From Bacteroidota bacterium (GTDB lineage Bacteria; Bacteroidota; Bacteroidia; Palsa-948), in contig JACQAL010000004.1 in the NCBI GenBank assembly GCA_016195025.1, positions 1-64,000 of the forward strand: 64,000 nt of DNA. The letters run 5' to 3'. The notes below the pieces were generated by a model that searched no databases, was not told the DNA's origin, and saw nothing but the letters and a program-made list of their open reading frames with translations. The translations under genes and the position numbers were made by a program. How positions within the stretch are numbered: position 1 is the first letter of the stretch; each line of letters opens with the position of its first letter. This document shows positions 9,068-52,741 of the stretch, piece after piece.

Positions 9068-9340
9068 TGATTAATGATGGTTGATGGTTGTGGGATGATG
9101 GTTTGAGGTGACGGGGTGGCAGGTTGGGAATGGTTAATGGTTAATGGATGATGGTTAATGGCAGGTTGAGGTTGAGGGATGACAGGTTGATGTGAAGGAA
9201 TGGCAGGTTAAGGTTGAGGGAGTAAGGTTTTATGTTGTGAAAGGATGATTTGAAGTTGATGGTTGATGGTTGATGGTTGTGGGATGATGGTTTGAGATAA
9301 AGAAATTAAAAATTAAAAATTAAAAATTAAAAATTCATAT
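9068..9340. repeat. Simple-word repeat tract (GATGGTTGATGG, AATTAAAAATT)
   Basis: This gene-free stretch consists of degenerate direct repeats of words such as GATGGTTGATGG, GGTTAATGG, GGATGACAGGTTGA and GGTTGAGG, followed by four copies of AAAAATT. No coding potential is seen. It separates convergent genes (the zinc-ribbon gene and a carboxypeptidase-regulatory fragment). The same words recur in coding frame at 50725-50757 and 51783-51840. Confidence 0.7.
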
Positions 9341-44024: not shown

Positions 44025-44108
44025 GTTAAAGGTTTTAGTTCTGTGGTTGATGGTTAGGGTCAAAACTATAACTAAAACCAAAAACCATTTAACCATAACT
44101 AAAAACTA
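44025..44108. repeat. Word-type inverted repeat upstream of the flippase-like gene
   Basis: GTTAAAGGTTTTAGTT and GGTTGATGGTTA on the left face AACTAAAACC, ACCATTTAACCAT and AACTAAAAACT on the right, giving an imperfect hairpin of about 80 bp between panD and the flippase-like gene (both minus strand). It follows the panD stop within 15 bp. Confidence 0.6.
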
Positions 44109-44123
44109 ATGAACTATAAACTG

Positions 44124-44471
44124 TTATTTTATTTTGTTGGATTGATTCGGATAAACCAAACTCGGTTTGAATTTTTTTGCTTCTTCAAAATCCATGGCGG
44201 CATAGCCGAGCACAATCACTTCATCACCTATGGCAAACTTCAAAGCAGCCGGACCATTCATGCAAATGATTCCCGAACCTCTTGCGCCTTTGATTACATA
44301 GGTAATGATTCGCTCCCCGTTGCGGTAATTCAGCACGTGTACCTGCTCGTTGACAGTCAGGTTGGCGGCATCCATCAAATCTTCGTCAATGGTAATGCTT
44401 CCCACGTAATTCAAATCGGCTTCGGTAACGCGCGCGCGGTGAATTTTTGATTTCAGAATTTGTATTTCCAT
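44124..44471 (-). CDS. panD: Aspartate 1-decarboxylase (precursor)
   Basis: The 115-residue pyruvoyl enzyme has the self-cleavage site Gly-Ser in LNYVGSITIDEDLM, with upstream KSKIHRARVTEADL and downstream NGERIITYVIKGARGSGIIC, NGPAALKFAIGDEVIVLGYA. Cleavage at Gly-Ser gives beta and alpha chains and the pyruvoyl group, making beta-alanine for pantothenate. panC lies 750 bp upstream on the same strand, and the gap between them holds the tandem array and palindromes described separately. Confidence 0.95.
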   Translation of the reverse strand: MEIQILKSKIHRARVTEADLNYVGSITIDEDLMDAANLTVNEQVHVLNYRNGERIITYVIKGARGSGIICMNGPAALKFAIGDEVIVLGYAAMDFEEAKKFKPSLVYPNQSNKIK

Positions 44472-44550
44472 AAAAATTAGTGGCGCGAAGGTAAATAAAT
44501 AAACCCTGTGCGATACTGGTTCCCATTAATATGCAGAAACACCCGAAAAA

Positions 44551-44861
44551 TGATGATAGGTAAGCGAGTGAAGTATGGAGTAATCTGACTTTACTCCATA
44601 CCAAAGCGAGTGATGTATGACGATAAGCCCCTGAAGTATGACGGTAAATGGGTGAAGTATGGAGGTAAGCGAGTGATGTACATCGGTAAGCGGCTGAAGT
44701 ATGGAGGTAAGCGAGTGATGTACATCGGTAAGCGGCTGAAGTATGGAGATAAGCCCCTGATGTATGACGATAAGCCGGTGAAGTACATCGGTAAGCCGGT
44801 GAAGTATATCGGTAACCCGGTGAACGATGACGGTAACTCAGCGAACGGTTACGAAAAAGCC
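44551..44861. repeat. 21-bp tandem repeat array (heptapeptide minisatellite)
   Basis: Twelve in-phase 21-bp units run from 44610 to 44861 with two to three degenerate ones before them. Each unit follows [GTG/CTG][AAG/ATG][TATGAC/TATGGA/TACATC][GAT/GGT]AAG[CCC/CCG/CGA/CGG]. Read on the plus strand this is [V/L][K/M]Y[D/G/I][D/G]K[P/R/W]. A 42-bp higher-order period (units 5-6 and 7-8) is nearly exact. Units 1-2 are altered by a 10-bp perfect hairpin (TATGGAGTAA/TTACTCCATA) with a stop but keep the 42-bp length. Units share identity with no unique spacers, so this is not a CRISPR array. Confidence 0.9.
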
Positions 44862-44909
44862 CTGCCCGCCCTGCCTGTCCGGCAGGCAGGCATCGTTTTT
44901 TTTGTTTAG
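44610..44909 (+). CDS. Possible heptad-repeat polypeptide encoded by the array
   Basis: A GTG at 44610 opens 99 codons on the plus strand, about 12 heptads such as VKYGGKR, VMYIGKR, LKYGDKP, then a non-repeat tail (ALPALPVRQAGIVFFV) derived from the adjacent palindrome. The peptide would be very basic with a Tyr in every heptad. There is no ribosome-binding site or promoter, and the minus strand is also open (44591-44788, reading SRLPMYITRLPPYF), so coding is unproven. The array may be only DNA or RNA structure. Confidence 0.2.
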   Translation: MMYDDKPLKYDGKWVKYGGKRVMYIGKRLKYGGKRVMYIGKRLKYGDKPLMYDDKPVKYIGKPVKYIGNPVNDDGNSANGYEKALPALPVRQAGIVFFV

Positions 44910-44945
44910 CCTGTCCGGCAGGCAGGCATCGTTTGTTTTGTTTCG
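44862..44945. repeat. Two REP-like GC palindromes (CCGGCAGGCAGG)
   Basis: CTGCCTGTCCGGCAGGCAGG (44871-44890) and a second copy at 44909-44931 share the palindrome core with the sequence CATCGTTT following each. A related copy lies in frame at 51798-51817. They follow the 21-bp array directly and form strong hairpins. Confidence 0.75.
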
Positions 44946-44974
44946 TGATGACAGGCAGGGCTGCTCCATGACGG

Positions 44975-45169
44975 TCAAACAGCAGGCGGCAGCGGATGCG
45001 GATTGGGCGATGGCGATGGAGGGTTTACGCCCGTTCTTGAAATGAAAGACACCACCGTGCTCCAGTTGCTCTGCCCGCGGGCGTTCATTACCGAAATACG
45101 AATGAACACTTCCTGCCCGCTGGAATCTTTCAGCAAAAACTTTTCTTCCGCTTCTAAAAACTTCAACAT
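44975..45169 (-). CDS. Possible small protein fragment downstream of panC
   Basis: A 64-residue frame starts MLKFLEAEEKFLLKDSSGQE and contains VFIRISVMNARGQSNWSTVV, which resembles the last strands of a fibronectin type III fold, then a Pro-rich end (NPPSPSPNPHPLPP). The frame is open back to the panC stop codon and is in the same phase as panC, so stop read-through would append it. No start signal is seen. It may be a remnant of a gene deleted around the array. Not recognised with confidence. Confidence 0.25.
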   Translation of the reverse strand: MLKFLEAEEKFLLKDSSGQEVFIRISVMNARGQSNWSTVVSFISRTGVNPPSPSPNPHPLPPAV

Positions 45170-45220: not shown

Positions 45221-46096
45221 TCAGAAAGGAATATTATCAATCAACCGCACACTTCCCATTTTAACCGCAATGCATGCCTGCAATCCTTCCGGAGCCGACA
45301 GGCGCGCATGGTGAAATTCTTCGTTTGATAAAGGGTGAAGCGTTCCGGCATTTACAACTTCAAAGTATTCTAATTTCATAAAGCGGCTGGAGTTGATTTG
45401 GTCTTCCACCCATGTTCGTATTTGCACAAGCGTGCCCCCGGTGGCTTTTGTTCCCAGCAATGTTTTATAAATGAGCGGAGCATTTTTTCTTTCTTCAGGC
45501 GTCAACACCCTGTTGCGCGAACTAATGGCAAGCCCGTCTTCTTCGCGAACGGTGGGGCAGCCGGTTATTTCAACAGGAATCTTCAGCATTTTCACCATGT
45601 GTTTTATAATTGCTAACTGCTGAAAATCTTTTTCTCCGAAATACGCCTTGCGCGGCTGAATAATACCGAAGAGTTTTTTCACTGCCGTGCAAACCCCCTG
45701 AAAATGCCCCGGGCGGTGAGCGCCTTCCATGAATAAATCAAGCCCGCCCAAATCAAAAAAAGATTCCGGATGTTCCGAAGGCAGCATTGGATTTTTGCCA
45801 TACATCTCTTCCACCGAAGGAGCAAAAAGCATGTTGCATCCGGCCGCTTTCAACTTCTCACTATCCGTTTCAAGGGTGCGCGGATAGTTTTCAAGATCTT
45901 TTTTATCGTTGAACTGAAGCGGGTTTACAAAAATGCTTGCCACAGCAATATCATTTTCTTTTTTGCATCTTTCCAGAAGTGAAATATGTCCCTGGTGCAA
46001 AGCCCCCATGGTGGGCACAAAGCCAATAGTTTTTTCCTCTTTTCTGCGGAAATTCAAATAATTTTTAGTATCTTGTATGGTTGTACAAACATTCAT
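45221..46096 (-). CDS. panC: Pantothenate synthetase
   Basis: The 291-residue enzyme shows the class I nucleotidyltransferase motifs: GFVPTMGALHQGHISLLERC (HxGH), FVNPLQFNDKKDLENYPR, FGEKDFQQLAIIKHMV and VREEDGLAISSRNRVLTPEE (KMSKS-like site replaced by SSRN). It joins pantoate and beta-alanine with ATP. It is transcribed divergently from the GT5-like gene, a gene order I know from other Bacteroidota, and lies upstream of panD on the same strand with an unusual 750-bp repeat-filled gap. Confidence 0.95.
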   Translation of the reverse strand: MNVCTTIQDTKNYLNFRRKEEKTIGFVPTMGALHQGHISLLERCKKENDIAVASIFVNPLQFNDKKDLENYPRTLETDSEKLKAAGCNMLFAPSVEEMYGKNPMLPSEHPESFFDLGGLDLFMEGAHRPGHFQGVCTAVKKLFGIIQPRKAYFGEKDFQQLAIIKHMVKMLKIPVEITGCPTVREEDGLAISSRNRVLTPEERKNAPLIYKTLLGTKATGGTLVQIRTWVEDQINSSRFMKLEYFEVVNAGTLHPLSNEEFHHARLSAPEGLQACIAVKMGSVRLIDNIPF

Positions 46097-50695: not shown

Positions 50696-52741
50696 ATGAG
50701 AAAAAAAAATAAAAATAAAAAAGTCCATCAACCATCAACCATCAACCATCAACCATCGTATCGGTGGGCTTACATTTTTCTTTTCCTTCTCGCCTGCGGG
50801 CTTTACATCAACACGCTCAATCATGAATTTGCTTTTGACGACTCGGTTGTCATCACCGGAAATAAATATACCAAGGAAGGTTTCGCAGGAATAAAAACGC
50901 TCGCCACCAAAGATTTGTTCTATGGAATTTACGGCAACGCGCTTGACCTGGAAGGCGGGCGGTGGAGGCCTTTAACTTTAATCATGTTCGCCATCGAATA
51001 TCATTTCTTTGGCGACAATGCACATCCGTATCACTTCATAAATATTCTTCTCTATGGAATTACTGCAATGGTTTTATTTATGACGCTCGGAGAAATTTTC
51101 CCGAAGAATAAATTACTTGCTTTTCTTGCCACACTTTTATTTATCGCTCATCCCATCCACACGGAAGTTGTGGCAAACATCAAGAGCCGGGATGAAATTG
51201 TTTCGTTTCTTTTTCTTTGCCTGACACTTTTTTTTCTTTTTCGTTACGCACGCATCTCTCCCCCTAACGGGGGGAGCAGGAGGGGGGCTCTTATTTTCTA
51301 CGGAGCGCTTTGCTATTTCACCGCACTTCTTTCAAAAGAAAACGGAATCACTTTCATCGCCATTATTCCGCTGGCGCTGTTTTGCTTTGCAGGAAAAAAT
51401 AGTAAGCAAAGTTTACTGCTCTCCATTCCATTTTTTATTACAGCAGGAATTTATCTTGCTCTGCGAACTCATTTTGTCGGCATGATTGGCGACCGCGTGA
51501 GCAATGATTTAACCGATAACCCTTTCATGAAAGTAAATTTTCCTGCTCTGCCCATGCAAATTCCTTTCCCGGAAAAGTTCGCCACCGTTTGCTGGATTCT
51601 TCTGAAGTATCTCCTGCTCCTGATTTTTCCTCATCCGCTCACTTCCGATTATGCGTTCAATGAAATTCCCGCTATCAGTTTATCAAACCCGAAAGCAATC
51701 ATTTCCATTTTAATTTATGCCGGATTATTTTTTTACGCAGTGAAAATTTTAATTGCAAAGTTTAAAGCCCCAAGTTTAGAAGCATCAACCATCAGCCCTG
51801 CCTTGCCGGCAGGCAGGCATCAACCATTAACCATTAACCATATTTTCTCCTTTGCCATTCTCTTTCACATTATAACCATTTCCATCGTTTCAAATTTATT
51901 TTTCCTGATTGGCACAAATATGGGCGAACGGTTTGCTTATATAACTTCTTTGGGATTTTGCCTTGCGCTTGCTGCCGTTCTGCTGCGAATTACGAACATA
52001 ACGAATTACGAATTACGAAAAGATATTTTCAGAAATACAAAACTGATGATTCCTCTTGCACTAATTATTATTCCATATTCGATAAAAACAATTTCACGCA
52101 ATCCTGTCTGGAAAAATAATGAAGCGCTTTTCACTGCCGATGTAAAAACCAGCACCAACAGCGCCAACGCGCATTACTATTTTGCAAACACTGTTTTCAC
52201 TTCTCACATGGAAGATGCGCCTTCGCCCAAGCGCGATTCCATTTTTGCGCTGGCGAAAAAAGAATTTACAAGAGCCATGCAAATAAATCCGTACTTCCAT
52301 TATTGCTATTACAATATCGGGCTCATCTGGGAAAAAAGCGGAGCGCCCGATTCTGCCATTGCTTACCAGCAAAAAGTTATTTCGCTCAAGCCGGAAAACA
52401 CCATGGCGCAGTACATGGCAAAGGGCGCGCTGGGTTTGGTATATGGAAAATTAAAAGGCGATGTGGACAAAGCAATTCCCCTGCTGAAAGAAGCGCTTGC
52501 CAACAAACCCGATGACGAAGGGTATCACGAAAATTTAGGAATATGCTACGCAATGAAAAAGGACTATGACAATTCAATCAATGAATTTGAGAAAGCGCTG
52601 AAACTAAAATCAGAATTCAAAAAAGAAGATGCGCGCATATTCATGAACCTTGCCCTGAGTTGGCAGAACAAAGGCAATAAAGAAAAAGCCGGTGAGAATT
52701 TTCAGAAAGCATTTCAACTGGACCCTTCGCTGAAGAAATAA
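50696..52741 (+). CDS. TMTC-like membrane protein with TPR repeats
   Basis: The ATG at 50696 is preferred over an upstream TTG. About ten membrane helices (IFLFLLACGLYINTL, AFLATLLFIAHPIHTEVVAN, ...) precede a DUF1736-type GRWRPLTLIMFAIEYHFFGD, and the HPIHTEVV motif is typical of TMTC O-mannosyltransferase relatives. The C-terminal ~170 residues form three to four TPR units (AHYYFANTVFTSH, YCYYNIGLIWEKSGAPDSAI, PDDEGYHENLGICYAMKKDY). Four different repeats are inserted in frame: VHQPSTINHQPS, ISPPNGGSRRGALI, STISPALPAGRHQPLTINH and ITNITNYELRKD. A role in protein glycosylation is inferred from the family. Confidence 0.75.
   Translation: MRKKNKNKKVHQPSTINHQPSYRWAYIFLFLLACGLYINTLNHEFAFDDSVVITGNKYTKEGFAGIKTLATKDLFYGIYGNALDLEGGRWRPLTLIMFAIEYHFFGDNAHPYHFINILLYGITAMVLFMTLGEIFPKNKLLAFLATLLFIAHPIHTEVVANIKSRDEIVSFLFLCLTLFFLFRYARISPPNGGSRRGALIFYGALCYFTALLSKENGITFIAIIPLALFCFAGKNSKQSLLLSIPFFITAGIYLALRTHFVGMIGDRVSNDLTDNPFMKVNFPALPMQIPFPEKFATVCWILLKYLLLLIFPHPLTSDYAFNEIPAISLSNPKAIISILIYAGLFFYAVKILIAKFKAPSLEASTISPALPAGRHQPLTINHIFSFAILFHIITISIVSNLFFLIGTNMGERFAYITSLGFCLALAAVLLRITNITNYELRKDIFRNTKLMIPLALIIIPYSIKTISRNPVWKNNEALFTADVKTSTNSANAHYYFANTVFTSHMEDAPSPKRDSIFALAKKEFTRAMQINPYFHYCYYNIGLIWEKSGAPDSAIAYQQKVISLKPENTMAQYMAKGALGLVYGKLKGDVDKAIPLLKEALANKPDDEGYHENLGICYAMKKDYDNSINEFEKALKLKSEFKKEDARIFMNLALSWQNKGNKEKAGENFQKAFQLDPSLKK
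50725..50757. repeat. CAACCAT word repeat in coding frame
   Basis: CCATCAACCATCAACCATCA is repeated about four times and is read in frame as QPSTINHQPS in the cytosolic N-terminus of the TMTC-like protein. The same word in reverse complement dominates the intergenic tract at 9068-9300. Confidence 0.6.
51253..51290. repeat. In-frame palindrome read as PPNGGSRRGA
   Basis: CTCCCCCTAACGGGGGGAG is an almost perfect hairpin placed in a loop after a membrane helix of the TMTC-like protein. It belongs to the same class as the palindrome in the T9SS beta-helix gene. Confidence 0.6.
51783..51840. repeat. In-frame GC palindrome plus CCATTAA words
   Basis: CTGCCTTGCCGGCAGGCAGG (about 51798-51817) is a copy of the panC-panD palindrome. 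It is nested inside CATCAACCATCA and CCATTAACCATTAACCAT words. The whole insert is read as STISPALPAGRHQPLTINH. Confidence 0.6.

Follow-up and report, generated by a model that had tools for sequence, protein, structure and literature searches.

The 21-bp tandem array found between panC and panD in a Bacteroidota genome is half of a recurring two-part locus, in which the gene for a helical and fibronectin-III (FN3) protein of about 210 aa is accompanied by an array of approximately 21-bp units. The linkage of gene and array is real across at least four phyla and is well supported. A preliminary description of this DNA had proposed that the array could be a variable locus, which is supported in that the array changes quickly; it had also offered a repeat peptide, which is not supported, and it had overlooked the gene fragment in the window, the gene-array unit and a second copy in the same genome.

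The array in the panC-panD gap and its source

The window, by which we mean the whole stretch of 64,000 nucleotides that was analysed, comes from a genome of 3.5 Mb in 79 contigs (G000). On its minus strand, the first gene downstream of the array (44124-44471) is a homologue of what we take to be panD, and the upstream gene (45221-46096) a homologue of what we take to be panC; both identities come from general sequence knowledge and agree with homologues in genus-mates, as well as with the flanks named in the preliminary description. Between them, TRF reported a period of 21 bp in 11.1 copies at 44604-44836, with higher-order periods of 42 and 63 bp and scores of 165-211, the top score among 40 block-shuffled copies of the window being 69. 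The array as a whole extends over 44604-44839; its units abut with no spacers between them, twelve can be counted from 44604, and neighbouring units average 72% identity. The at least twelve exact-phase units and the 42-bp higher-order repeat described earlier were thus found again, the latter with a 63-bp period besides, and the rule that TACATC is followed by GGT is true of all three TACATC-bearing units. The array is preceded by a two-unit-long segment (44562-44603, 42 bp), in which the arms of a perfect 10-bp inverted repeat are TATGGAGTAA (44574-44583) and TTACTCCATA (44591-44600); as had been noted, this segment holds an in-frame TGA and keeps the unit phase, and it looks like an inverted partial unit. 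Frames open on both strands had also been reported, and 44610-44909 on the plus strand (99 aa) and 44591-44788 on the minus strand (65 aa) do cover much of the array. Elsewhere in the window, at 9129-9335, 44062-44119 and 50725-50757, short tandem repeats with units of 7 and 21 bp differ in sequence from the array (AATGGTT, GTTGATG, AAATTAA, CCATCAA and AACTATA-like) and are of the heptamer type known from Bacteroidetes.

One further copy of the window array, 83% identical, was found in the same genome on contig C36, directly downstream of a full 235-aa gene (G000:C36:27080-27784). The window holds the truncated 3' end of this gene, the last 49 codons (residues 187-235, 94% identical), at 44978-45124 on the minus strand, and the whole duplicated segment, which includes the gene 3' end, the spacer, the array and a short tail, occupies 44527-45120 (minus strand) and is homologous to G000:C36:27642-28144. 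This homology ends sharply on both sides and, in the genus-mates G001, G003 and G006, the panC-panD gap is 55-65 bp long and the array is absent, from which it follows that a truncated duplicate was inserted between panC and panD; the location of the array in this gap is accidental. In a fourth genus-mate, G004, the gap is 275 bp long and its sequence is unrelated to the array; this spacer (L120 ~2345-2615) carries inverted CTTAGTG/CACTAAG heptamer repeats where the window has the array. In the window, the spacer between gene fragment and array contains two copies of a 36-bp repeat with GCCTGTCCGGCAGGCAGGC (44873-44943), which the C36 copy lacks. A complete protein gene is absent from the window copy, which is probably a relic without a protein of its own; it lies 133 bp from panD, reads on the panD strand, and possibly affects panD, which it now precedes.

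When the two copies are compared, the gene segment is about 95% identical and the array 78-83%, as would suit the variable locus that had been proposed, and the arrays differ by one whole 21-bp unit and one 13-bp block, gained or lost. The 13-bp gap breaks every reading frame in the paralogue and speaks against the Tyr-rich heptapeptide that had been suggested as a product of the array.

A protein family with its own arrays

Protein searches of relatives recovered G000 paralogues and, from other genomes, distant homologues. Nearly all had arrays at their side with a period of 21, 42 or 63 bp, the units of which are unrelated in sequence from one locus to another. An array of 21, 42 or 63 bp lay within 700 bp of 52 of 75 family genes versus 23 of 314 other ORFs (odds ratio 28.6, p = 1.6e-28), a background count that is conservative because neighbours of family arrays are included in it. 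Upstream sequence of 400 bp or more was available for 131 distinct family genes, and TRF or a lag-21 test linked 110 of them (84%) to an array; at TRF-negative loci, 21 outscored every other upstream lag in 14 of 33 cases, where about 1.4 are expected. The array starts upstream of the ATG in most of the family, usually 30-650 bp away, and 31-146 bp downstream of the stop codon in the subfamily of the window copy (L005, L011, L017, L022, L028); its length clusters at approximately 150-450 bp. The family was present in 44 of 295 genomes in a class-wide search, several with ten or more reported matches. A contig scan with a single protein gave no matches, but an alignment-based scan of named genomes did find more loci in Bacteroidota, in Verrucomicrobiota, in one Ignavibacteria MAG and in one Acidobacteriota MAG, with arrays there too (in 11 of 12 verrucomicrobial loci). 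Cultured carriers include Lacibacter cauensis, Ginsengibacter hankyongi and a Sphingobacterium. The arrays probably account for contig breaks beside family genes, and the family is therefore likely under-assembled.

No non-coding 21-bp array was found in random stretches totalling 400 kb from four family-bearing genomes (G262, G156, G103, G254). Five genomes with no family match in a whole-genome search yielded a single weak one in 454 kb, a control set in whose G020 stretches a broader HMM gave two weaker family matches. The source genome of the window is an exception, with 13 arrays in 533 kb: five adjoin a family member, its fragment, or the protein at L163, which is of similar size and undetected by the family HMM, and the others, with no detectable partner, may be relics like the window copy. 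At L032, L035, L161 and L165 in this genome, 21-/42-bp arrays stand without a detectable family gene and several adjoin large predicted secreted proteins. No conserved gene neighbour of the family recurred, and no plasmid, phage or IMG/VR match was obtained. A terminator-like hairpin with a T-run lies behind many family genes. Some 60-130 bp before the gene at L099, L100 and L103, AAAGGAGG is followed by minimal start-stop frames (ATG TAA; ATG ACA TAA; ATG CCC GGA TGA).

The family protein, of approximately 210-235 aa, has an N-terminal helical domain and a C-terminal FN3 domain. In the AlphaFold2 model (mean pLDDT 88.7) the helices occupy residues 16-102 and a beta domain comes after. FN3 domains were the only Foldseek matches, and the N-terminal domain searched alone gave no significant PDB match. 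Among 23 members, Pfam fn3 was detected in nine, and NCBIfam returned no family match for the protein; no recognised DNA-binding domain was found in either half. The pI exceeds 8.5 in more than half of the members. In two G001 paralogues (L016 and L025) the C-terminal half is nearly identical and the N-terminal half diverged, a pattern that suggests recombination between paralogues.

In one genome, G278, the paralogues have in common a promoter-like box, TGGAACAAAA-N8-TCGAGGnTTnTAT, on the 5' side of the array. A search that tolerated two mismatches matched the box eleven times in this genome and the reversed control pattern zero times. A family gene follows eight of the eleven boxes, seven of them with a detectable array in between, and behind two others (L286, L288) comes an array but no family gene could be detected, so that these may be stand-alone arrays. 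The last box has two mismatches and stands before an ECF sigma-factor gene (L289:991-1640) that starts about 30 bp further on; next comes the gene of a protein of about 330 aa without a Pfam match, perhaps its anti-sigma factor. Since ECF factors commonly drive their own promoter, the G278 box is probably the promoter of this factor and the arrays are probably transcribed. A different motif was found in G254, with six occurrences, all upstream of a family gene and, where an array was found, between array and gene. No common promoter box was found in G000, and the standard Bacteroidetes promoter (TTG-N17-21-TAnnTTTG) was rejected as the common element, being rare and without pattern upstream of family genes.

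Constant step and possible roles of the array

At gene identities of 86, 83 and 82%, the array consensus identity was 90, 67 and 57%, and at 78% or below it was mostly at background, with exceptions that include L005/L011 and L013/L054. These sequence comparisons show that an array descends together with its gene and evolves faster than it, while the 21-bp step is kept. Homology between paralogues often stops near the array edge. The period is 21, 42, 63 or 84 in 187 of approximately 220 TRF rows scoring at least 80, and the remaining rows are mostly near-multiples (20, 22, 44, 61-62). Phase is intact over 100-460 bp in 53 degenerate arrays, although the identity between neighbouring units is 46-65%. 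A rotation-allowed positional signature, weak but common to the arrays, scored 175.6 versus 145.1 ± 5.6 in flanks, and bases at a distance of 5 nt are identical in excess. Identity at lag 7 is below controls, and an origin of the arrays from heptamers was rejected on this depletion. About ten different array tests were chosen in sequence while exploring the data, so that lone results of 2-3 sigma are weak; the linkage and period results are far beyond this concern.

Taking into consideration the constant 21-bp step and the freely changing sequence, we infer that each unit offers one weak site on one face of the helix, and we tentatively prefer, at somewhat less than even confidence, a reading in which the locus pairs the gene with an array of phased weak sites that are bound cooperatively by protein and control the adjacent gene. 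A step of 21 bp would correspond to two turns of B-DNA (2 x 10.5) and leave the sequence free, and the putative weak sites of all units would then face the same side. Several protein copies would bind cooperatively, the encoded neighbour protein being the simplest candidate and a partner protein another, and the bound array might control the adjacent gene in the way that iterons do for plasmid initiator genes. Helical phasing is a working model, and the argument for it is drawn solely from the unit length, because base identity at lag 10 or 11 within units showed no increase. Several facts count against DNA sites: the protein has no recognised DNA-binding domain; 21 bp is also seven codons; unit-wise exchange by itself preserves the period of an array once founded, without any function; 21 of the 131 genes show no array and, at several sites in G000, an array stands where no family gene can be detected. 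In G278, moreover, the array is downstream of the box and hence would be transcribed, which fits an RNA as well.

Such an RNA, either a long leader or a separate transcript, would carry one structured element every 21 nt and would bind the encoded protein or regulate the mRNA, in the manner of the repeat RNA of type III toxin-antitoxin loci. The position of the G278 arrays between box and gene is in its favour, and so are the two loci where box and array stand with no family gene downstream and the terminator-like hairpins that family genes carry as their own. Hairpin potential also points this way, and is not obviously expected of DNA sites: compared with column-permuted controls, the folding energy gave a mean z of -0.91 over 38 arrays, with a wide spread and 15 arrays below -1.5, and the longest-stem test gave z 0.63 ± 0.19. 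A universal hairpin was nevertheless rejected, as structure is enriched on average yet missing from many arrays, which fold no better than controls. The window array is one of these, so that of the structured RNA proposed for it, the enrichment stands for arrays overall and not for this one. Compensatory change between units is weak, an Rfam scan of 20 loci returned one tRNA and no known RNA family, RNA elements would not need a unit of exactly 21, and the family has no ToxN-like protein. We consider an RNA array unlikely, though only somewhat less likely than phased sites.

The same standing, unlikely but only somewhat behind phased sites, is given to a neutral minisatellite, an old 21-bp array carried beside the gene, with its period kept by exchange or slippage of whole units. 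It would account for the unit-sized gaps between the two G000 copies, for arrays that diverge faster than genes, and for the persistence of orphan and truncated copies, the window copy among them. It does not readily explain why, across phyla, 84% of the genes keep an array next to them, why lengths cluster around 150-450 bp, why phase survives at 46-60% unit identity, or why unrelated arrays have a weak signature in common.

A coding array, that is, one for a heptapeptide-repeat protein, appears very improbable. The unit is seven codons long, stops are slightly fewer than expected, and, of the nine G278 copies whose array is detectable, six carry an ORF of 109-266 codons that spans the array wholly or for the most part and begins 36-176 bp past the box. 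However, the L284 and L285 arrays have no 100-codon ORF and in L099, which represents the L285 locus again, each of the three frames is interrupted by stops; periods of 20, 22 and 44 exist; and the 13-bp gap in the window's paralogue has been described above. Heptapeptide coding was rejected in every test applied, codon-position variability included. Open frames were only slightly in excess, numbering 26 of 33 on the gene strand versus 20 in column-permuted controls and 24 versus 22 on the other strand; dN/dS in gene-strand frames was 0.80 for open and 0.76 for closed ones; and degenerate arrays were open in 15 of 53 cases on the gene strand versus 22 of 53 on the opposite one.

Comparison with known systems

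Iterons, which precede plasmid rep genes as direct repeats of about 17-22 bp, are spaced by whole helical turns and lie beside a presumed regulator gene. The present arrays have a repeat length and spacing of this kind and, as in iterons, the sequence varies between systems while the geometry is kept. In contrast, the loci described here are chromosomal, often number ten or more per genome, encode an FN3 protein with no initiator or Rep domain, and gave no plasmid or phage match. Type III toxin-antitoxin systems (ToxIN, CptIN, TenpIN) likewise have locus-specific tandem repeats adjoining one small gene, usually upstream of it. However, the family protein is not a ToxN/AbiQ-like endoribonuclease by sequence or fold, the antitoxin repeats are typically longer than 21 bp, many of our arrays are without RNA structure, no type III antitoxin RNA family was matched in Rfam among 20 loci, and the window copy belongs to a subfamily with the array behind the gene. 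With REP/RAYT elements the loci have in common that repeats are dispersed together with a gene family, but no Y1 transposase domain is present in the family, and the arrays are long, tandem and locus-specific. A CRISPR array was rejected, as the units abut without unique spacers and no neighbour genes recur. Direct repeats of the heptamer TAACTGA are known from Beggiatoaceae, Cyanobacteria and some Bacteroidetes; they are intergenic and, in Elizabethkingia anophelis, lie next to similar ORFs (MacGregor 2015, PMC4679880). These too are intergenic direct repeats in Bacteroidetes, and 21 is a multiple of 7; they are, however, 7-bp units of one sequence, whereas in our arrays lag 7 is depleted, the units are locus-specific and one gene family is tracked.

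Judged against the open-access literature, the chance appears only a little short of even that these loci form an undescribed class, found in at least four phyla, in which a helical and FN3 protein has its own array, the spacing of two helical turns is conserved and the sequence is not, many distinct copies occur per genome and, in at least one lineage, a single ECF sigma factor activates the copies jointly. If gene and array are indeed partners, a widespread protein family, so far uncharacterised, is accompanied by a non-coding element that is conserved in spacing and free in sequence. The loci would then offer a natural system in which to study selection on spacing alone, the co-divergence of protein and site inside one genome, and the reach of one ECF sigma factor by way of ten dispersed copies.
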